Source: Chloroflexota bacterium (lineage in GTDB: Bacteria > Chloroflexota > Anaerolineae > Aggregatilineales > Phototrophicaceae). Taken from it: a stretch of 64,000 bases of DNA. Each line of letters begins with the position of its first letter. The first letter of the stretch is position 1. Positions 22,009 through 52,593 of this stretch are shown piece by piece. Position numbers and translations under genes: made by a program. Location of the stretch: the NCBI GenBank assembly GCA_011523545.1, contig WTGN01000105.1, positions 1 to 64,000 on the forward strand, read 5' to 3'. The notes beneath the pieces are model-generated. The model ran no database searches, was not told the DNA's origin, and saw nothing but the letters and a program-made list of their open reading frames with translations.

Positions 22009-24930
22009 TCAGCCTTCCATGATCACAAGCGACAGCTGCGACGCGGCTCGGTTCCCCACCTTGTCATAAGCAAGCGCCTTGAATGAGAAATCGCCCGCGC
22101 CGTCCAGGGCCGCCTCGATACCATAAGGCCAGTCGCGATCGTCGCCCAACAAACTCTCATCTCGGTAGAATTCAACCCGGTCAATTGTGAGGTTGTCGCT
22201 GACCTCCGCCAACAGAGACAGCGTCCTTTGAGACGGATAGCGGATCTCCGCGGCTGGCTCGCTGAGCCGCAGTTTCACCGCCGGCGGCGTATTGTCAAAA
22301 GTCAGCAGCTTGCTATCCGTCGCCAGCTCCCCATCGGCGAATTCAACTGAAAGGCGCAGGGTGTAGATGCCGCTGAACAAAGCTGTGTTCCAGGTCGCCG
22401 AAATCTCGCCGCCTGCGTCGACAGTCTGGCGCTCGCCGATCGGAATCCATCGGTCAGGATTCACTTCAGCGCCGTATTCCAACTGCCAGGTTCGCGCGCC
22501 CGCCCGCTCAATGCTGGCCGCGATATCCACGCGAGAGCCGACATAGGCATAATCTGCCGGCGAAGTGATGCGGGCAGCTTTGGCGCTGGGCGGCAAGCTA
22601 TCGGTGCTGTAGCTGCTTGGCGGGAGCGGCTTTCCATTTTCCAGCCACCAGTCCATCAACTCCTCCGGCGGCATGAAATATGCAACCGACTCGCGTAAAT
22701 CATCCGGCGTATTCACCGTGGCCAAATGGCCCGTCGCCCGATTGATCTCGACGGTCTGCCAAAAGTGATCGCGCTGCATCAAGGAGCCGGCGGGCACCAT
22801 TTCCCGCCGTGTCGGGCAATGAGATGTCGTCGCCGGCAGCAACCCGGAAATCTCGCAAACCAGAAACTCCTCGATATCGGCGGGCGGGGCCCAAGCTCTA
22901 TCAGGCAAATCCAGATGCGCGTGGGCATAGTCCATCAGCGCCTGCCAGACCGGCGCTGAACCGGCGCGGTCGCCGGCGCCAGGGCTGAGCCGGGCGCCCT
23001 CAAGCCGGCCCGTGTGCAGCGCCAGAACCAGATCGGGGCTATAACCCAGGGTCCAGCTATCGCGCTGGTCGGCGCTAAAACCATCGAGGACGGCCGCCGC
23101 GCGAGAAATCGGCAGGCTGCTTTCCCACCGCTGTAAAACAGCTTCCCGCCTGTCAATATCGGCCAGAATGTCATTCACCATGTACGCGGCGCTGGGCGGA
23201 ATGATCTCCGTCTCCTTCGCCATGGAGTCTTCTTCGTATGACCAGAGGACCTGCCCCGCCGCGTCTTCGATTTTCAAGACCGCGACCGGGTCTCGTCCGC
23301 GGAAGCCAGCTTGCAGAGGCGGCGCCGGGACGCCGCGCATCGCGCCCATGGAAGCCAGCACGCTGTAGGCGTAGGCGCTATCCAAAACGGATACTGCCCC
23401 GCCCCGCTCCAGCAGGTCCAGGCCGGCGCCGCTCGCTGCCAGGCTGTTGAATCCCAGCGCTTGCGCGGTATGTATCGCTGGCTCTATGCCGCTGACGCTC
23501 GCCACTTGAACGGCTGCGGGCAAGCGCCCGGCCTCCATCGCATCGCGCAGATTCATGGGACCGTGATACAAGCCATCCGCATTCGCCGGTCGGTAAATCA
23601 AGTCGGCGGATGCGCCCGGGTAAGAGCGCGGCACATCATACACCATCGATGCCGGCGTGAACTCGCGCCGCAGGAAGGCATCCAGGTAGACAAAAGGCTG
23701 GAGCAGGATCGCGGGTTGATGACCTGCCGTCAGCGCATCCCCGGCCAGGCTCAATATCCGTCCACTGCCGACATCAATGAGCGCCAGCGCGCCAGTATCC
23801 GGCCGGTCTGCCTCGGCTGTGAGGGGGGATTGCGCCGGCGGACAGGGTGACCCATCCAGGGCAATCGCCGCCTCCCGCTGCTGCAAATGCGCGCGCAGAA
23901 GGCACTCCGCGCTCAACTGCAGTTCAAGGTCGAGCGATGTCGTGATGCGCAGGCCGCCACGAGCCAGCAGCCGGGCGCCGTCAAGACCACGCCTGTCAAG
24001 GAGTGTTTCCGCTTGGCCGCGCGCGTACTTGATGAAGGCCGGCGCAATGTCGGATTGTCGCGCGTCAACCCCTCGGAAGCTCGGGACGGCCGCCGCCGCT
24101 TCATCGAATTGGGATTTTTCGATCAGCCCCTTGTCCAGCATTTGGAACAGCAGGTCCGCGCCCCGTTCACGCGCTTGCTGGGCCGCATCGACCGGATTGA
24201 GCGTTGGCGCCTGGCCGATTGCGGCCAACAGGGTCGACTCCGTCAGCGACAAATCCAGCGCCGACTTGCCGAGGTAGACCTGGGCGGCCGCTTCAATGCC
24301 AAAGGCGTCCCCGCCGTAATAAGCGCTGTTCAGCCGCCACTCGAGCAGGGCCTCCGGCGAATGAATGCGTTTGCTCTCGGCGACCAGCACAATCTCCAGC
24401 AGGCGGGCGTCCAACCCGCTGGCCGCCGTCAGCGGCAGAATGGCATCGCGCACAAGATTGCCGCTGATGCCCGGCTGAGATTTCAGCGGCAAGCCCAGAA
24501 TATAGCGCGTGACTTGTATCAAGGTCAGAGGTAGATCGAAGGGTAGGGACGCGGAGTCGGGGCCGGCGTCTTCAGCTAGAGCGGTCGCGTCTACCAGCTG
24601 CGGCGGCAATTCCTCCAGCGCCTGCCAGCGGCGCCGCTCGCCCAGCGGATCTGTGACGGTGTGAATCAGTCTTTCGCCGCTCGCGTCAAGAAAGCGCGTC
24701 CTGCCCTGCGCCTGTTCAAAGAAGACGGTCGCTTGTGGCGCTGGCATGTGGCTGGCAGCGGCGAGATAAAGCCAGAGAGACAGCGCCAGGCCGGCCAGCA
24801 GCGGCGTCATCGCCAGGGCCAGCGGAATGCCGATGATGACAATTGACCAAAACGCGGAGCGCCGGGCGCCCTTGATCCGCCGGCCTTTGCGGCTGTGGCG
24901 GCGGCGAATGATATGCGCGACAGAGGGCAT
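22009..24930 (-). CDS. Class A PBP-like (GT51 + transpeptidase fold) protein with degenerate catalytic motifs and C-terminal Ig-like domains
   Basis: Start re-assigned to Met at 24930 (MPSVAHIIRRRH); GT51-like LLEWRLNSAYYGGDAFGIEAAAQVYLGK; transpeptidase fold with SxxK, SxN and KTG positions substituted. Confidence 0.82.
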   Translation of the reverse strand: MPSVAHIIRRRHSRKGRRIKGARRSAFWSIVIIGIPLALAMTPLLAGLALSLWLYLAAASHMPAPQATVFFEQAQGRTRFLDASGERLIHTVTDPLGERRRWQALEELPPQLVDATALAEDAGPDSASLPFDLPLTLIQVTRYILGLPLKSQPGISGNLVRDAILPLTAASGLDARLLEIVLVAESKRIHSPEALLEWRLNSAYYGGDAFGIEAAAQVYLGKSALDLSLTESTLLAAIGQAPTLNPVDAAQQARERGADLLFQMLDKGLIEKSQFDEAAAAVPSFRGVDARQSDIAPAFIKYARGQAETLLDRRGLDGARLLARGGLRITTSLDLELQLSAECLLRAHLQQREAAIALDGSPCPPAQSPLTAEADRPDTGALALIDVGSGRILSLAGDALTAGHQPAILLQPFVYLDAFLRREFTPASMVYDVPRSYPGASADLIYRPANADGLYHGPMNLRDAMEAGRLPAAVQVASVSGIEPAIHTAQALGFNSLAASGAGLDLLERGGAVSVLDSAYAYSVLASMGAMRGVPAPPLQAGFRGRDPVAVLKIEDAAGQVLWSYEEDSMAKETEIIPPSAAYMVNDILADIDRREAVLQRWESSLPISRAAAVLDGFSADQRDSWTLGYSPDLVLALHTGRLEGARLSPGAGDRAGSAPVWQALMDYAHAHLDLPDRAWAPPADIEEFLVCEISGLLPATTSHCPTRREMVPAGSLMQRDHFWQTVEINRATGHLATVNTPDDLRESVAYFMPPEELMDWWLENGKPLPPSSYSTDSLPPSAKAARITSPADYAYVGSRVDIAASIERAGARTWQLEYGAEVNPDRWIPIGERQTVDAGGEISATWNTALFSGIYTLRLSVEFADGELATDSKLLTFDNTPPAVKLRLSEPAAEIRYPSQRTLSLLAEVSDNLTIDRVEFYRDESLLGDDRDWPYGIEAALDGAGDFSFKALAYDKVGNRAASQLSLVIMEG

Positions 24931-25075: not shown

Positions 25076-25600
25076 TCAGATGCCCTCTTGAAAGGCGCGC
25101 AGTCCTTCCCAATCGTCCTTGGCGGCAAGTTCCGCTTGCCGCGGTATCGTCTCCAGGCCAGCTGGCGCGGCCCGCCCAGCCTCGCTGAAGATCGCGCGCA
25201 AGTCATCTATGGAAGCGCCGGCTAGGGCCGCGTAGCTGTGGATGCCCGCTTCATTCAATATACGCTGATAACCGGCCGCGATGCCTTTGATCTTGGTCAG
25301 GTCATCGCTCTCGCTAGCATCGGGCTGCTCCGTTTCGCGCCGCACTTCGCGCCGTTTCGCCAGCGCTTCCGCCTCGTCGGCCGCGTCCTGCGCCGCCTGC
25401 ACTGCCTCAGCCGAGCCTTCGGCCGCCGCGTCACGGCGAAGCCAAATCCAAAACAGGATGGCCACCGCCAGCAGGCCGAGCGACCAGGGGAACATATCGC
25501 GTCCGCTCTCAGGGGCGATCACGGCGTTCAGCGCGAGGACAATGGCGCCGACCAGCGCCATCGTAGCGGTTAAATCCTTGGCGTTCTTGTTGAGTTTCAT
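25076..25600 (-). CDS. Membrane protein with C-terminal helix-hairpin-helix-like domain
   Basis: Two TM helices, then LTKIKGIAAGYQRILNEAGIHSYAALAGASIDDLRAI. Confidence 0.7.
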   Translation of the reverse strand: MKLNKNAKDLTATMALVGAIVLALNAVIAPESGRDMFPWSLGLLAVAILFWIWLRRDAAAEGSAEAVQAAQDAADEAEALAKRREVRRETEQPDASESDDLTKIKGIAAGYQRILNEAGIHSYAALAGASIDDLRAIFSEAGRAAPAGLETIPRQAELAAKDDWEGLRAFQEGI

Positions 25601-25839
25601 AATGCCTTCCAGCACTTTAAGTCACATGGCACAGCCTGGATTATAGCATAACCGTCAGCGCATATTTCAGCGCAAATGTATACCGCGACCAATCCGCTCC
25701 CGCTCCGCCAGCTGCATAGGGCAGATTTCGGCGGCCGCCCCTTGCGGGAAAACGCGCCACCTTGACAAATCGAACATTTATGCTGACAATGGCTGGGCAT
25801 TGGCATCCAAGAGCATAAACCGGAGAAAGGTCTACTATC

Positions 25840-30511: not shown

Positions 30512-31738
30512 CTACCCGGCGCTCCAGGGATAAATAAGGAAACGATACCAATATGCGAAACCGGACAGAACGTGCAGCGCAAACAAGGCAAAGCCGACGC
30601 TGACCCGATGGGATAATCGCGGGCCCGCGCGACGCGTCTCAAGGTCTTGCGTCTCGCGCTCTCGTTTATGCTGCTCGATTAGGAACTTTAACGACGCGAA
30701 CATCAATACAAACATCGCGCTGTAAGCCGTCCATAGAAAGTTGCCTGAGCGAAAACCAGGTCCCTCTTGATATAGAGTCAGCAAGTACAGGGCGCCAACG
30801 GCAAATACGATCCAACACAGTTTTAGATACTGGCATTTACGCGCCGCGTCAACATAGAGCAGGCAAACGCCGACCGGGAAGACCAGCGACAAGGCGAACT
30901 GAATCGGTACGCGCCAAAGCGGGATCCAGGCTGTCATAAATCTCAGCGGTCCAAACGCGATAGGCCCGCCATGCTGAAAGCCAGAGGCGAAGGTGTAGAG
31001 ATATTCAAGCGCAAGCACAATGCCTCCGGGGATGCACAAGCCCAATAGAATGAAGACAAAGTCGCCTCCCTTTCCCATTCTCAAGCGTCGCCAAATCGCA
31101 AACAGAACTACAGCCGGCAACAAGGCAATTGTATAACTGGGCTTGCTCAATGTCGTCAGCATAATGACTGAAGCGGCCGCCAAGAGCCAAAAAACGCGCT
31201 GATTGCGATCGCGGTAGTCGCGCTCTTTCACCGCCAGCAAAGCCAGGAGGGACAGGGGAATGACAAAGAGACGCAGCGCGATCAGCGTGGGGTTGTGATA
31301 AACGATGGGGTTGATGTAACCCATCATAAATTTGTTGTTCGCCCAGACTGTGACGGGAGACGCAAAGGTCAATCCCAATGCTAAAGCGCCAATGAATAAA
31401 TCCGGCAGCGCCCCGCCGGCCGATCGCTTCAGCAGCAGGTGAATCATCGCCGGAAGCGGCAGCATGAAACTCAGAACGCTTATCAACTGAACATCTAAAT
31501 TTGAAGCTGCGGGCAACAGCGCCCGGACAACTTTCACAACGGCGTGGTAAAGAACATGGCCAACGGCGCGATTGGTCGTCTGCGCCGGCAATTCCATAGC
31601 GCGGAGGTAATGATTCTCATAATCTATCGATACCTGTATCGCATGGCGCATCACTGGCGTGAGAAACATCATGCTCAACGCCAGCAACAAGACGTACATC
31701 ACACTGTTGCTGAGGACTTCGCCGCTTTCAGTTTTCAT
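30512..31738 (-). CDS. Multi-pass membrane protein, tandem paralog Q3
   Basis: MKTESGEVL start; DYENHY, PSYTIALLPAVV, WTAYSAMFVLMFASL motifs shared with Q1/Q2. Confidence 0.8.
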   Translation of the reverse strand: MKTESGEVLSNSVMYVLLLALSMMFLTPVMRHAIQVSIDYENHYLRAMELPAQTTNRAVGHVLYHAVVKVVRALLPAASNLDVQLISVLSFMLPLPAMIHLLLKRSAGGALPDLFIGALALGLTFASPVTVWANNKFMMGYINPIVYHNPTLIALRLFVIPLSLLALLAVKERDYRDRNQRVFWLLAAASVIMLTTLSKPSYTIALLPAVVLFAIWRRLRMGKGGDFVFILLGLCIPGGIVLALEYLYTFASGFQHGGPIAFGPLRFMTAWIPLWRVPIQFALSLVFPVGVCLLYVDAARKCQYLKLCWIVFAVGALYLLTLYQEGPGFRSGNFLWTAYSAMFVLMFASLKFLIEQHKRERETQDLETRRAGPRLSHRVSVGFALFALHVLSGFAYWYRFLIYPWSAG

Positions 31739-31764
31739 GACCGTGCTTTCGCAAACGGCGCGCG

Positions 31765-32976
31765 CTAAACATAATCGAAGAATCGATGCCAATAAGCGAT
31801 TCCGGACAAAACGTGCAGCGCAAACAAGGCCAAGCCGACGCTGACCCGCGAGGATAATCGGGGGCCCGCGCTACCCGTCTCAAGGCCTTGGCTCTTGCGT
31901 TCTCGCTTATGCTGCTGTATCAGAAATATCAGGGAGGCGAACATCAGCACAAACATCGCGCTGTAAGCCGTCCAAACAAAATTGCCCGACTGAAAATCGC
32001 CGCCGTCTTGATATAAAGTGAACAAGTACAGGCAGCTAATGGCCAATACGAGCCACGACAGTTTGAGGTATTGGCATTTGCGCGCCGCGTCAAAATAAAG
32101 CAGGCACACGCTGATCGGGAAGACCAGCGACAAGGCGACCTGAATCGGTATGCGCCAGGCCGGAATATAATAGGTCATGAAACTCAGCGGTCCGAACGTG
32201 ATCGGCCCGCCATGTGGTAATCCGCTGGCGAAGGTGAAGAAATACTGAAGTGCGAGAATAATGCCAGCGGGGAGGCACAAGCCCCATACTATGAAGACAA
32301 AGTCGCCCCTCTTCCCTCTCAAGCGGCGCCACATCGCATAAAGGACCACAGCCGGCAGCAGGGCAATCGTATAGCTGGGCTTGCTCAATGTCGCCACCAT
32401 GATGGCGGAAGCGGCCGCCGACAGCCAAAAGAATCGCTGATTGCGATCGCGGTAGACGCGCGACTGAACGGCTAGCATAGCCAGCAGGGACAGGGGAATG
32501 ACAAACAGACGCAGCGCGATCAGCGTCGGGTTGTGATAAACGATGAGATTGATATAGCCGATCATCCACCTGTTGTCCGTCCAAACAGTGACGGGAGCGG
32601 CAAGCGTTAATCCCAATGCCAAGGCGCCGATGAATATATCCGGCAGCGTCCCGCCGGCTGATCTTTTCAGCAGCAGGTAAATCAGCGCCGGAAGCGGCAG
32701 CATGAAACTCAGTATGCTTATCAATTGCACGTCGGCGTCTGTGGCCGCGGGCAACAGCGCCCGGAAGACTTTCACGACGGCGTGGTAAAGCACGTGACCG
32801 ATGGCGATGTTCCCGATCTTCGTCGGCAATTCGATAGCGAAGTTGTAATGATTGTAATAATCTGACGCTTCATCTATGGCATGGCGCATCACTGGCGTGA
32901 GAAACATAAAGCTCAACGTCAGCAACAAGACGCACATCAAACTGTTTTGAAGGAAATCAGCGCTTTCAGTTTTCAT
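31765..32976 (-). CDS. Multi-pass membrane protein, tandem paralog Q2
   Basis: MKTESADFL start, 403 aa, collinear with Q1. Confidence 0.82.
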   Translation of the reverse strand: MKTESADFLQNSLMCVLLLTLSFMFLTPVMRHAIDEASDYYNHYNFAIELPTKIGNIAIGHVLYHAVVKVFRALLPAATDADVQLISILSFMLPLPALIYLLLKRSAGGTLPDIFIGALALGLTLAAPVTVWTDNRWMIGYINLIVYHNPTLIALRLFVIPLSLLAMLAVQSRVYRDRNQRFFWLSAAASAIMVATLSKPSYTIALLPAVVLYAMWRRLRGKRGDFVFIVWGLCLPAGIILALQYFFTFASGLPHGGPITFGPLSFMTYYIPAWRIPIQVALSLVFPISVCLLYFDAARKCQYLKLSWLVLAISCLYLFTLYQDGGDFQSGNFVWTAYSAMFVLMFASLIFLIQQHKRERKSQGLETGSAGPRLSSRVSVGLALFALHVLSGIAYWHRFFDYV

Positions 32977-33002
32977 GATCGCGCTTTCGCGACCGGGGCG
33001 CG

Positions 33003-34214
33003 TTAAACATAATTGAAGAATCGATGCCAATAGGCGATACCGGACAAAACGTGCAGCGCAAACAAGGCAAAGCAGACGCCGACCCGCGGGGATAATCGGG
33101 GGCCCGCGCGACGCGTCTCAAGACCTTTCCGCTTGCGCTCTCTTTTATGCTGCTCGATCACAAACGTCAAGGATGCGAACATCAACACAAATATCGTGCT
33201 GTAAGCCGTCCAAACAAAATTGCCCGACTTAAGATCGCCGCCGTCTTGATATAAAGTGAACATGTACAGGCAGCCGATGGCCAATACGAGCCACGACAGT
33301 TTGAGGTAATGGCATTTGCGCGCCTCGTCAACATAGAGCAGGCAAACGCAGGCCGGGAAGACGAGCGACAAGGCGACCTGGATCGGTATGCGCCAGGCCG
33401 GAACATAAAAATCCATGAATCTCAACGGTCCGAACGCGATCGCCCCGCCATGCCGAAAGCCGGCGGCGAACGTATAAAGATATTCCAGCGCGAGAATAAT
33501 GCCGCCAGGGATGCACAAGCCCCACAGCAGGAAGACAAAATCGCCCTTGCAGCCTTCTGATCGTCGCCAAATCGCATATATAATCAAAGCCGGCAGTAGG
33601 GCAATTGTATAGCTGGGCTTGCTCAGCGTCGTCAGCATCATGAGGGCAGCGGCCGCCAGCAGCCAAAAGAGGCGCTGATTGAGGTCGCGGTAGCCGCGCT
33701 CTTGCACCGCTAGCAAAGCCAGCAGGGACAGGGGAATGACAAAGGGACGCAGCGCGATATATGTGGGGTTGTGATAAACAATGGGAGTGACATACCCGAT
33801 CATAAATTTGTTGTCCACCCAGATCGTGACGGGCGCCGCAAGCGCTAATCCCAAAGCCAGCGCGCCAGTGAACATATCCGGCAGCGTCCCGCCGGCTGAT
33901 CTTTTCAGCAACAGAAAAATCATTGGGCAAAGCGGCAGCATGAAACTCAGCACGCTTATCAATTGAATATCTGGCCCGGCAGCAGCAGGCAGAAGCCCAC
34001 GGTAGACTTTCACAACCGCGTGATATAGAACGTGACCGATAGGGCGATTCGTAGTCTGCGCCGGCAATTCCATAGCGTTGCGGTAATGATTCTCATAATC
34101 TGTAGACTCCTGTATCGCATGGCGCATCACCGGCGCGAATAACCCCAAGCTCAACGCAAGCAGCAAGGCGAGCGTCAAACTGGTTCTCAGGAAATCGCCG
34201 CTTTCAGTTTTCAT
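33003..34214 (-). CDS. Multi-pass membrane protein, tandem paralog Q1
   Basis: MKTESGDFL start, 403 aa, collinear with Q2. Confidence 0.82.
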   Translation of the reverse strand: MKTESGDFLRTSLTLALLLALSLGLFAPVMRHAIQESTDYENHYRNAMELPAQTTNRPIGHVLYHAVVKVYRGLLPAAAGPDIQLISVLSFMLPLCPMIFLLLKRSAGGTLPDMFTGALALGLALAAPVTIWVDNKFMIGYVTPIVYHNPTYIALRPFVIPLSLLALLAVQERGYRDLNQRLFWLLAAAALMMLTTLSKPSYTIALLPALIIYAIWRRSEGCKGDFVFLLWGLCIPGGIILALEYLYTFAAGFRHGGAIAFGPLRFMDFYVPAWRIPIQVALSLVFPACVCLLYVDEARKCHYLKLSWLVLAIGCLYMFTLYQDGGDLKSGNFVWTAYSTIFVLMFASLTFVIEQHKRERKRKGLETRRAGPRLSPRVGVCFALFALHVLSGIAYWHRFFNYV

Positions 34215-34319
34215 GACCGCGCTTTCGCGACCCGGGCGCAAGGTAACGAGTTAAAGAGCATATTCCTTGTGGCCAAGCTCCAGCACATATTTTAGCGTAA
34301 TGAACAGAATCTGCAGGAT

Positions 34320-36161
34320 TCAATCTCTGAGATAGCGGATCTGATAGAGTTCACCGTCAACAAAGCCGCGCTTGCGGTAATAGGCGCGGGTGCCGATGGA
34401 AGAAATGACCGCCAGGCGCCCATACCCGCGCGCAGCCGCCAGCGCAGCCGCTTTGTCGATGAGCCGCCGGCCCAGGCCAACATGCTGCGCCCGGCCGGGC
34501 TGGGCCGCGCCGATGCCGAGCGCCAACCCATAAACATGCACCTCGCGGATCATAGCCGCGCCGCGCAGTTCGTCGATCAAGGGCGCTTCAGCATCATCGG
34601 GCAATGACAGGCGCAGAAAGCCGGCGATGTCGCGCTCCGCCGTGATGTATTGCAGAAACAACTCTTCGCCAACGCTCGTGCGATAGCGCAGGCAGTCCAG
34701 TTGCAGCTCACGCTCATCTACTGCTTTCACGCCGATTTCGCGGGCGCGGATATCGACGCTGCCTCCCCCGCGCCGCGCCAGTTCGCGCTCGACCAATTGG
34801 CGGAAGTTGGTCACTTTGTTGCCAGCGACAATATCAGTGCCGGGAATATCGCGGATGACGCGCGTCAGCCGGCAGTACTCCGGCGTCCGCTTGAAACAGG
34901 CGACCAGCAGCTCAAGCAGCTCTTCATGTTGGTAGGGCCGCCATTCGCCCGCTTGATATTGCTGCATCAACTCGGCGCTTTCGATCAGCGAGCAGGGATA
35001 AATCTTCAACTCGTCAGGCCGGAAATCGGGGTCTCCAAATAGCAATTCGAAATCGGCAAGGTCGTCAGCCGGCGACGAGCCGTGGAGATTGGGCATCCAG
35101 TGGGCGTGAATCTTGAAGCCAGCTTTGCGCAGCAGCTGCACCGCCCGCCGCGTCGCCGCCACATCGTGACCGCGTTTGTTCAGCGCCAGGACGCGATCAT
35201 TCAGACTTTGAAAGCCGATCTGCACTTTGGTGCAGCCGAGGCGCCGCACGCGGATGACTTCATCTTCGCTGATATGGTCGGGGCGCGTCTCGATCACCAG
35301 GCCAACGGCGCGGCAGGCGGCAGTCTCGTTTTCCCGCTGCGCCGCTTCCAGCTCTTCCCAGGTGGCATATTCATCTACAAGGCTGCGCGCGCGCATCCCG
35401 GCAGCGATCTCACTCGCCAGCCCGCGGGAACGCAGCATCTCGGCGGCGTAAATCTCCTGCACCGTCTGATTGTAGGAGGCCGTCATCTGAGCGCCATGCA
35501 GCGTCACGTTGCTGATCGGCTCGCCCGCGAACATCGATTTTTCGCGCAAAGAGTCTTGCACATTAGCGCGCCGGTCGACGCCATGCCCAAAGTCATGCAA
35601 GGCGTCCAGAATGCGCTTGATGAACCAGATTTGATAAGTCTCGGGATAAAAGGACCAGGTACCGCCCAATATGATGATCTCGATTTTGTCGGTCGAGTGC
35701 CCGAGATTGTGGTAGGTCTGCAAGCGCGTCACAGTCTGCAAATAAGGATCGAAGGCGTTCTTTTCCGCCCGCTGCGCGCCCGGTTCATCGGCCAGATAAC
35801 TCTTCGGCATGCGCACGTCATTCGGGCAGAAGATGCAGGTGCCCGGGCAGGGAAAGGGCTTCGTCAAGACCGTCAGCGGCGTCACGCCGGAGAGCGTACG
35901 AACGGGCTTCCGCCGCAGCTTGTAGAGAAGCGCCTGATCAAATGCGGGCAGGCCATCTTGCCCGGCGAAAACGCGCCAAGCATCAACCAGGTTCGCCAGG
36001 CTGTAGAAGCCTTCGCCCGCCGGCCGGGGGTGGCGCCGCATCAACTGCTGATGCTCGCGCGAGCTCAGGCGGCCGGGCGCATGCAGAATGACCTTGAGCA
36101 GGGGGATCAACTGCTCGCGGTGGGCCTCGGCGTCAAAGTCGTACTTGCTGTCCTTAGTCAT
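34320..36161 (-). CDS. elp3: Elp3-like tRNA uridine(34) 5-carboxymethylaminomethyl synthase (radical SAM + GNAT)
   Basis: KPFPCPGTCIFCPNDVRMPKSYL; GTWSFYP; HWMPNLHGSSPADD; C-terminal acetyltransferase GLGRRLIDKAAALAAARGYGRLAVISSIGTRAYYRKRGF. Confidence 0.93.
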   Translation of the reverse strand: MTKDSKYDFDAEAHREQLIPLLKVILHAPGRLSSREHQQLMRRHPRPAGEGFYSLANLVDAWRVFAGQDGLPAFDQALLYKLRRKPVRTLSGVTPLTVLTKPFPCPGTCIFCPNDVRMPKSYLADEPGAQRAEKNAFDPYLQTVTRLQTYHNLGHSTDKIEIIILGGTWSFYPETYQIWFIKRILDALHDFGHGVDRRANVQDSLREKSMFAGEPISNVTLHGAQMTASYNQTVQEIYAAEMLRSRGLASEIAAGMRARSLVDEYATWEELEAAQRENETAACRAVGLVIETRPDHISEDEVIRVRRLGCTKVQIGFQSLNDRVLALNKRGHDVAATRRAVQLLRKAGFKIHAHWMPNLHGSSPADDLADFELLFGDPDFRPDELKIYPCSLIESAELMQQYQAGEWRPYQHEELLELLVACFKRTPEYCRLTRVIRDIPGTDIVAGNKVTNFRQLVERELARRGGGSVDIRAREIGVKAVDERELQLDCLRYRTSVGEELFLQYITAERDIAGFLRLSLPDDAEAPLIDELRGAAMIREVHVYGLALGIGAAQPGRAQHVGLGRRLIDKAAALAAARGYGRLAVISSIGTRAYYRKRGFVDGELYQIRYLRD

Positions 36162-36309
36162 TTTCGATCCGGTTGCGACCATAAGCCAACATTCTAACGG
36201 CGATGGGCGTAAAGTTAAACGCGCATCTGTAATCGCAGGCCTGCGCTTTCTCCAGCCAGCTTTTCCGCTAAACTAGGTTTGTCATGCCGATTTTAGCCAG
36301 CAGGCGGTA

Positions 36310-50418: not shown

Positions 50419-52593
50419 ATGCCACGACTCGCGATCATCATTATCATCCTGCTTTTTTCGCTTTCGGCATGCGCGTCAACTGGCGAAGAGGCGGCGATTC
50501 AACTGGGGACGGCAGCGCCCAATCCGGCTGAGCTCGCCGATTTGGAAGCCGCTGGCCAAGTCGCGCGGCGCTTCCTAGACGCCTGGGCGGCCCGTGACTT
50601 CGCCGAGATGCATGGCCTGCTGACGTTCCGCAACCGCGAGTTGACGCCGTTGGAAGAGTTCCGCGCCATATACGACAATGCGCAGACCAGGCTGCGGTTG
50701 GAATCCCTGGAATACACGCCAACGAATCTCACTGGCGAGGGTCGCGTCCTCGCCTTTCAATACGATATCACTTTTCATACGCGCGTTTTGGGCAGCTTTG
50801 TCGACCCCCGGCGCACCCTGCATCTGGTGATTGACCCGCAAGTGGGCGCATGGCGCGTCGCCTGGTCCCCGGCCGATATTTTCCAGGAGATGGGCGAGGG
50901 CGCCCGCATCGTCTTCGAAGCGCAGACGCCCAGCCGCGCCAATATCTACGACCGCGCCGGCGATGTGCTGGCCGACCAAAACGGCCGCATGGTGCGCGTC
51001 CTGGTTGACAACGGGCGCATCCCCGATAGCGATGTCTGCTTCCAGATCCTGGCGGAAGCGCTGGAAACACCGCCGGAAGAAATCAACGATCTCTTCAACG
51101 TCCGCTCCAGGCCTGACTGGATCGTGGACGCCGGCCTGCTTGAACCGAACACATTCATAAAGAACAACGATCTCATAAAGGCGTATTGCGGCGCCGAATT
51201 CAGGCAGCTGCCCACCCGCCGTTACGCCCAGGGCAGTTTGCTGCCGCATGTGGTCGGTCATGTGGGTTATCCCGATGCCGAGCAAATCCCCGCGCTGGAA
51301 GCTGTCGGCTTCAACGCCGAGACGATCATCGGCAAAGGCGGCGTCGAAGCGGGCATGAATGATACCCTGGCCGGGCGTCCAGGCGGCCGGCTTTCCCTGA
51401 TCGCGCCTGACGGCCGGCGCCTGCGCGTGCTGAGCGAGGTCCGCTCGCAGGTCCCGGAGAGCCTGTGGCTGACCATCGATGCCGATTTGCAGGCGGAGGT
51501 CGCGCGCCTGCTGGCGGAAGCTTACGCCAACAGCGCCTGGGCGGAAAACTCCGAAGGCGCCGCCGTCGTCATCATGGACGTCAACAATGGCGAAATCCTC
51601 GCCATGGTCAGCTTCCCGATCTACGACAGCAATGTCCTCAATCCCTTCCCCGCGGTCGGGCGCGCCCAGGCGGAGGAAGCCTTGAAGGCCATCGTCGAGG
51701 ACGAGCGCAAACCCCTGATCAACCGGGCGACTCAGGGCGCATATTCCACCGGCTCGGTGATGAAAGGCTTGACGACCGTCGCCGCGCTAGAAAGCGGTAT
51801 CTACGACGAGGCGACGCGTTATAACTGCACCGGCGTCTGGACCTACGGGCGGGATGTTCGTTATGACTGGCTGCGCGGCGGCCATGGCATCATGTCCGTG
51901 CAGACGGGCATCACCAACAGCTGCAACCCCTTTTTCTATCAGGCGGGCTTCCAATTGAACGCCAAGGATCCCTGGCTGCTGCCATCTTTCGCGCGGCTCC
52001 TCGGTTTGGGCCAGCCTACCGGCATCAGCACCCTTCCCGAAGAGGCCGGCAACGTCCCCACACCGGACAATGTCGAGCGGATAACCGGCCTGCCCTGGTC
52101 ATATTCACACGCTGTCAACCTCTCCATCGGCCAGGGCGAGGTGCAGGCGTCGCCGCTGCAAATGCTGCGCTTGTATGCCGCCATCGCCAACGGCGGTTAT
52201 GTCTTGCGCCCGCATCTCGTGCGCGAACGGGGCATCCTCGACCAGCGGACGCGCGTCGCCCAGCGCGATGTCATGGTCGATGCCCAGCTCGACCCCGCCA
52301 ATCTCGCCCTCATCCGCCGCGGCATGTGCGATGTGGTTAATAGCCCAACGGGCACGGCCGCCCATCAATTCTATCGATCGCCCTTGCTGGATGTCGGCGT
52401 CTGCGGCAAGACCGGCACCGCCCAGGTGCCCGGAGAGGACGACCCGCCCCACAGCTGGTTCATCGCCTATGCGCCGGCAAAAGCGCCGCAGATCGCCATC
52501 GTCGCCATGGTCGAGAATGCAGGCGAAGGGTCGGCCGTCGCCGCGCCCCTCACGCGGGATATCCTGGAGTATTACTACTTTGGCAAGAACTGA
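50419..52593 (+). CDS. Penicillin-binding protein (class B-type transpeptidase)
   Basis: Lipoprotein-like N-terminus; STGSVMKGL (SxxK), TNSCN (SxN), GKTGTAQ (KTG) all intact; NTF2-like N-domain. Confidence 0.92.
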   Translation: MPRLAIIIIILLFSLSACASTGEEAAIQLGTAAPNPAELADLEAAGQVARRFLDAWAARDFAEMHGLLTFRNRELTPLEEFRAIYDNAQTRLRLESLEYTPTNLTGEGRVLAFQYDITFHTRVLGSFVDPRRTLHLVIDPQVGAWRVAWSPADIFQEMGEGARIVFEAQTPSRANIYDRAGDVLADQNGRMVRVLVDNGRIPDSDVCFQILAEALETPPEEINDLFNVRSRPDWIVDAGLLEPNTFIKNNDLIKAYCGAEFRQLPTRRYAQGSLLPHVVGHVGYPDAEQIPALEAVGFNAETIIGKGGVEAGMNDTLAGRPGGRLSLIAPDGRRLRVLSEVRSQVPESLWLTIDADLQAEVARLLAEAYANSAWAENSEGAAVVIMDVNNGEILAMVSFPIYDSNVLNPFPAVGRAQAEEALKAIVEDERKPLINRATQGAYSTGSVMKGLTTVAALESGIYDEATRYNCTGVWTYGRDVRYDWLRGGHGIMSVQTGITNSCNPFFYQAGFQLNAKDPWLLPSFARLLGLGQPTGISTLPEEAGNVPTPDNVERITGLPWSYSHAVNLSIGQGEVQASPLQMLRLYAAIANGGYVLRPHLVRERGILDQRTRVAQRDVMVDAQLDPANLALIRRGMCDVVNSPTGTAAHQFYRSPLLDVGVCGKTGTAQVPGEDDPPHSWFIAYAPAKAPQIAIVAMVENAGEGSAVAAPLTRDILEYYYFGKN

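Follow-up and report, generated by a model that had tools for sequence, protein, structure and literature searches.

A class A PBP homologue, very likely inactive, is retained across the bacterial family Phototrophicaceae

The window, by which we mean the whole 64-kb stretch of DNA that was analysed, carries on its minus strand at 22009-24930 an open reading frame which translates into 973 codons plus stop. The frame stays open upstream to 25206, and translation probably begins with the ATG at 24930, because the starts of the orthologues share its column (MPxVAHII). The encoded protein is a homologue of class A PBPs, and its residues make it very likely that it is catalytically inactive; together with its orthologues in the GTDB family Phototrophicaceae (f1) it is referred to here as the pseudo-PBP. 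The features of the gene and of its surroundings are the following.

22009..24930, minus strand: class A PBP homologue, very likely catalytically dead, 973 aa plus stop (translation; TIGR02074 E 5.4e-57; orthologue starts)
24754..24921, minus strand: basic N-terminal segment and transmembrane helix, residues 4-59 (AlphaFold helix 4-59; conserved MPxVAHIIRRRR)
24061..24648, minus strand: degenerate GT51 module, residues 95-290 (PF00912 over 168-264 only; motif counts)
24541..24573, minus strand: remnant of glycosyltransferase (GT) motif I, residues 120-130, E120 and D121 kept, HxG lost (alignment, motif counts)
24445..24480, minus strand: remnant of GT motif II, residues 151-162, GGSTITQQ replaced, essential Gln 0/90 (alignment, motif counts)
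22861..23988, minus strand: transpeptidase-fold module without catalytic residues, residues 315-690 (alignment, motif counts, model, fold matches)
23686..23721, minus strand: dead SxxK helix HQPAILLQPFVY, residues 404-415 (Ser 0/90, Lys 0/90)
23509..23541, minus strand: dead SxN segment AMEAGRLPAAV, residues 464-474 (alignment and motif counts)
23053..23094, minus strand: dead KTG strand AVLDGFSADQRDSW, residues 613-626 (Lys 0/90)
22012..22593, minus strand: C-terminal Ig-like beta domains, residues 780-973, with PF17957 Big_7 at 888-941 (Pfam; AlphaFold)
25076..25615, minus strand: upstream neighbour, 179 aa, weak helix-hairpin-helix match (same place in 33/33 loci of the genus)
20517..22001, minus strand: downstream neighbour, DUF6056 polytopic membrane protein, GT-C-like predicted fold (Pfam, model)
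14834..20468, minus strand: three more DUF6056 membrane proteins in tandem, 14834-16678, 16950-18812 and 18822-20468 (Pfam)

The profile searches place the protein among the class A PBPs by descent, since homology extends across both the GT51 and the transpeptidase modules. The NCBIfam model TIGR02074 matches residues 173-671 with E 5.4e-57, and the PbpC-type models match with E 1e-41 to 1e-43 (PbpC model 1.9e-43). The scores lie far under the curated cut-offs: the PBP1C equivalog TIGR02073 gives 142.5 bits against 494.2, and NF051885 gives 149 against 900 bits. The two Pfam profiles that an earlier, sequence-only reading of this DNA had named as a check were also searched; PF00912 is found at residues 168-264 only, which is the second half of the GT domain, and the transpeptidase profile PF00905 gives no match at E 0.01. 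The matches in the PDB, by sequence and by fold, are class A PBPs, and the description of an intact, class A PBP-like protein of 973 residues given by the sequence-only reading is borne out by the frame and by TIGR02074. Structure prediction, which it had also proposed, returned a class A PBP fold that is predicted to be intact (AlphaFold, pLDDT 87.6, pTM 0.75); the model retains the SxxK helix (residues 407-420) as well as the KTG hairpin (residues 613-618 and 624-630). Foldseek against the PDB gives class A PBPs, such as 3dwk_A (TM 0.65 by target length, 694 columns), and also transpeptidase domains, such as 2je5_B (TM 0.70). By analogy with the topology of class A PBPs, the rest of the protein would be anchored outside the membrane.

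The transpeptidase module of the protein has lost its catalytic residues. The SxxK positions are I408 and Q411, the SxN positions are G468 and L470 (the family consensus of this segment is AMAAGLLPPAV), and KTG is replaced by L615-D616-G617, so that all three motifs had been aligned correctly by eye before. What had been noticed in one protein holds for the whole family: an alignment of 90 Phototrophicaceae orthologues from about two dozen genera shows the same losses in 90/90, and the proposed search for orthologues sharing the substitutions found the catalytic residues missing in every one. Neither Ser nor Lys of SxxK occurs (0/90 each), SxN is effectively gone (Ser 1/90, Asn 1/90), and KTG has Lys in 0/90 and Thr in 2/90; judged by these three motifs, the family does not qualify as class A PBP enzymes. 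The corresponding residues are present in 41-42 of the 42 orthologues of equal length that were taken from further families within the order and class, which served as the comparison with intact enzymes. The replacements in the family are mostly hydrophobic, SxxK Ser having become V, P or I in 75 orthologues, SxN Asn having become L in 75/90 and KTG Lys having become V, I or L in 85/90. The recurrence of the same losses in 90/90 orthologues means that chance is no issue, and misalignment was likewise ruled out by the residues P412, R462 and W626, which flank the motif columns and are invariant in 90/90. At the level of sequence, peptide cross-linking by known chemistry would be precluded, and so would covalent beta-lactam binding, for which a negative result is to be expected with no nucleophilic Ser.

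The degradation of the GT module, remarked on earlier for motif I, was confirmed and reaches motifs II and III as well. Motif I (EDxxFxxHxG) reads EDAGPDSAS in the protein of the window; across the family HxG is lost, though the acidic pair persists, with the Glu (E120) in 82/90 and the Asp in 63/90. In motif II the first Gln is found in none of the 90 orthologues, the second in 5 and the Ser of GGS in 7, and in motif III (RKxxE) Arg is kept in 3/90, Lys in 0/90 and Glu (E179) in 83/90. The 42 intact orthologues have the Glu and Asp of motif I, the two Gln of motif II and the Arg, Lys and Glu of motif III in 41 or 42 cases each. The combination of GGSTITQQ and RKxxE expected of a GT51 enzyme is therefore lacking in these orthologues, and motif IV (LEWxLN..YYG) is almost invariant. 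The persistence of both glutamates and of motif IV could be taken to mean that cross-linking alone was lost and that the protein is still an active glycosyltransferase. However, this is improbable. By its position in GGSTITQQ, the absent first Gln of motif II equates with Gln136 of S. aureus MGT, and mutating that residue abolishes the polymerisation of lipid II (PMC6053601). The Arg and Lys of motif III, the Ser of GGS and HxG have been lost in addition, and residues 124-127, which follow the catalytic Glu, are of low confidence in the AlphaFold model. These losses argue strongly that the pseudo-PBP most likely does not polymerise lipid II, and the conservation of E120 and E179 may reflect some glycan- or lipid-related binding or activity.

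The adjoining membrane genes had been read as a link to the envelope, and this view stands for the genus of the window but not for the other genera of the family. Directly downstream of the pseudo-PBP gene, the genus has DUF6056 membrane proteins in 27 of 33 loci and GroEL in the other six; in the Phototrophicaceae genera outside it, neither the helix-hairpin-helix protein nor the DUF6056 proteins were found beside the gene. The four DUF6056 proteins of the window stand in tandem at 14834-22001 on the minus strand, and the one that was modelled has a conserved DD near its N-terminus. Its model (pLDDT 86.3) matches the folds of oligosaccharyltransferases and ArnT (7oci_F, E 4.7e-4; 5f15, E 0.16, probability 0.97; TM 0.3-0.45), which weakly favours a fold of the GT-C type and suggests that the DUF6056 proteins may be membrane glycosyltransferases. 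Outside the genus, an OmpR-type response regulator is divergently adjacent in 21 of 57 Phototrophicaceae loci, and a PAS/GAF histidine kinase usually comes after it. From this arrangement one could picture the pseudo-PBP as a ligand-sensing receptor which signals to the adjoining two-component system, much as a wall-stress sensor would, but we give this little credence. A similar regulator (about 50% identical) occupies the corresponding position next to six intact orthologues, and therefore the arrangement is older than the loss of catalysis; besides, the divergent regulator is absent in the genus of the window, and hydrophobic residues fill the pocket. No neighbour gene is common to the whole family, so the context suggests an envelope setting and no single partner.

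Elsewhere on the minus strand of the window, three membrane-protein ORFs in a row, of 412-426 aa and with no Pfam match (30512-34241), form an apparent tandem paralogue array, the first and third being clearly alike by eye. The region 34320-36182 on the same strand encodes a protein with radical SAM and GNAT acetyltransferase domains, a domain content like that of Elp3, here found in a bacterium.

An orthologue of the pseudo-PBP is present in 94 of the 98 genomes of the family and is full length in the majority, with 37-87% identity across about two dozen genera. The remaining genomes (G010, G046, G063 and G095) have weaker, paralogue-like matches only and apparently lack the orthologue, and contig ends truncate the gene in G022, G024 and G040. 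In G053 it lies in two overlapping ORFs (G053:C153:5384-8300), owing to a frameshift or an assembly error. Pairwise NG86 dN/dS between close orthologues of the family is 0.05-0.25 for the whole gene and 0.03-0.35 for the motif columns, and well below 1 in all modules; the intact orthologues give 0.04-0.15 for the whole gene. Mean column entropy, calculated for the SxxK, SxN and KTG segments, is 1.02 bits in the dead SxxK helix and 1.01 in the SxN segment versus 1.68 for residues 95-690, and the KTG strand is about average at 1.64. Additionally, 22 columns hold a residue that is shared by 80% or more of the family yet rare among the intact orthologues. E508 (85/90), R509 (76/90), R642 (81/90) and W762 (90/90) belong to these and occupy columns in which the intact enzymes have a different invariant or near-invariant residue; P754 is a further example. 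Such columns, together with the constraint on the motifs, would fit a new constraint of a non-catalytic kind.

Three of these residues, E508, R509 and R642, are charged and lie in the transpeptidase module, and they could speak for an enzyme that is still active, either through a nucleophile at another position or through new chemistry in the transpeptidase fold. We regard this as very unlikely, since the catalytic positions have turned hydrophobic and none of the orthologues has an SxxK within residues 395-425. A different Ser or Lys in the active site is what the sequence-only reading had named as speaking against its own proposal, and no conserved Ser/Lys pair that could substitute for the lost residues was found in the alignment of the family. 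Slow decay of a pseudogene that is still unbroken is scarcely credible and largely refuted: it could draw on evolution quicker than in the intact orthologues (the stem branch of the dead clade is long and dN/dS is higher in several pairs), on the four genomes that apparently lack the gene and on the two ORFs in G053, but simple decay is ruled out by full-length frames open in 90 loci from about two dozen genera, by the low dN/dS in all modules, and by family-wide conservation with many invariant columns and new family-specific residues. Intact orthologues, which together with frameshifts would have pointed to decay, occur only outside f1 and a further family, f3, and the frames of f1 are open except for the split gene of G053.

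The catalytic residues are lost while fold and selection are retained, which is the pattern of a pseudoenzyme. In our judgement the protein probably descends from a bifunctional synthase and has been retained as an envelope scaffold or as an allosteric partner of active synthases. The ancestor would have been a PBP1A/PBP1C-like bifunctional peptidoglycan synthase altered in place, and both the PBP body, anchored in the membrane, and the Ig-like domains at the C-terminus may still dock to envelope partners, through which the pseudo-PBP would serve active peptidoglycan or envelope-glycan synthases. A retained non-enzymatic role had been proposed earlier; the loss of catalysis, purifying selection (dN/dS 0.05-0.25) and the predicted intact fold uphold its first half, and the role as scaffold or regulator is what we infer from them. 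The PBP at 50419-52593 on the plus strand, previously offered as the intact comparison, is a class B protein of the PBP2/MrdA type with a MecA_N (NTF2-like) domain (Pfam, NCBIfam), and it was ruled out as an intact class A counterpart. Elsewhere (C48 and C57) the genome has two class A PBPs whose transpeptidase motifs are intact, along with several class B PBPs, and the enzymatic work would be left to these.

The order-wide list of matches contains no second full-length copy above 464 bits in any Phototrophicaceae genome, split genes aside. This, and the OmpR-type regulator beside dead and intact genes alike, indicate that the change took place in the orthologous gene and not in a duplicate; functional replacement by a paralogue was ruled out, as shared synteny and the tree also support a change in place. 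Same-length orthologues outside f1 are intact in 42/42 cases, with the exception of f3, where the same orthologue is dead through other replacements (L160, L162 and L168): the SxxK Ser is kept in 2/3, the SxxK Lys has become Arg, the KTG Lys has become Tyr, GGSTITQQ is DDPILLYL-like, and 4 of the 22 f1-specific conserved columns are shared. In a PBP tree calculated without the motif columns, the dead f1 proteins form one clade (SH-aLRT 100%) which joins the dead f3 proteins (SH-aLRT 98%), but the AU test does not reject a grouping of f3 with f2/f4/f7 (p 0.21). Conversely, rpoB does not place f3 beside f1, but that placement is not rejected either (p 0.21). An independent loss in f3 is thus possible. 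It could be, though we hold this rather doubtful, that the orthogroup was made non-enzymatic at least twice (f1 and f3), that a structural function which can be separated from catalysis is ancient in it, and that f1 relies on a pseudo-PBP devoted to scaffolding as a permanent component of the machinery of its envelope. One genome of family f4 (G129) has an intact copy plus an f1-type dead copy (L157, L158), the latter on a 5.9-kb contig; this dead copy is likely contamination and possibly a transfer.

Pseudoenzymes and non-catalytic roles of PBPs are already known kinds, and such roles of class A PBPs are usually studied with engineered point mutants. The pseudo-PBP would be a separation-of-function allele made by evolution and fixed family-wide, with the intact orthologues of neighbouring families as controls, and the functions of class A PBPs other than catalysis become directly testable with it. 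Automatic annotation labels the protein as an enzyme (PBP1A family, transglycosylase), which it very likely is not. In the open-licence literature searched, no natural class A PBP was found that is uniformly dead and fixed through a bacterial family. The closest known type is the PBP1A/PBP1C-type class A PBP (TIGR02074, NF051885), with which the protein shares the membrane anchor, GT51, the transpeptidase module, VCxxSG...CPTR and the Ig-like C-terminus; it is orthologous to intact enzymes of sister families, and unlike this type it has neither transpeptidase catalytic residues nor GT motifs II and III. H. pylori Csd2 is described as a homologue of Csd1, a peptidoglycan hydrolase, that has no enzymatic activity of its own and belongs to a cell-shape complex (PMC9507126). 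Like the pseudo-PBP, Csd2 is a naturally dead relative of a wall enzyme, and it is kept in an envelope complex; however, Csd2 is related to a hydrolase and not to a PBP. In C. difficile, PBP3 works together with PBP1 in a non-catalytic way (PMC12539705), and non-catalytic PBP function is described for SpoVD and for B. subtilis PBP2b (PMC12713402). C. difficile PBP3 and B. subtilis PBP2b resemble our case in that a PBP body is needed beyond catalysis, activating or organising other synthases, but they are intact class B proteins whose catalysis was removed in the laboratory, whereas the protein of the Phototrophicaceae is naturally dead and belongs to class A.
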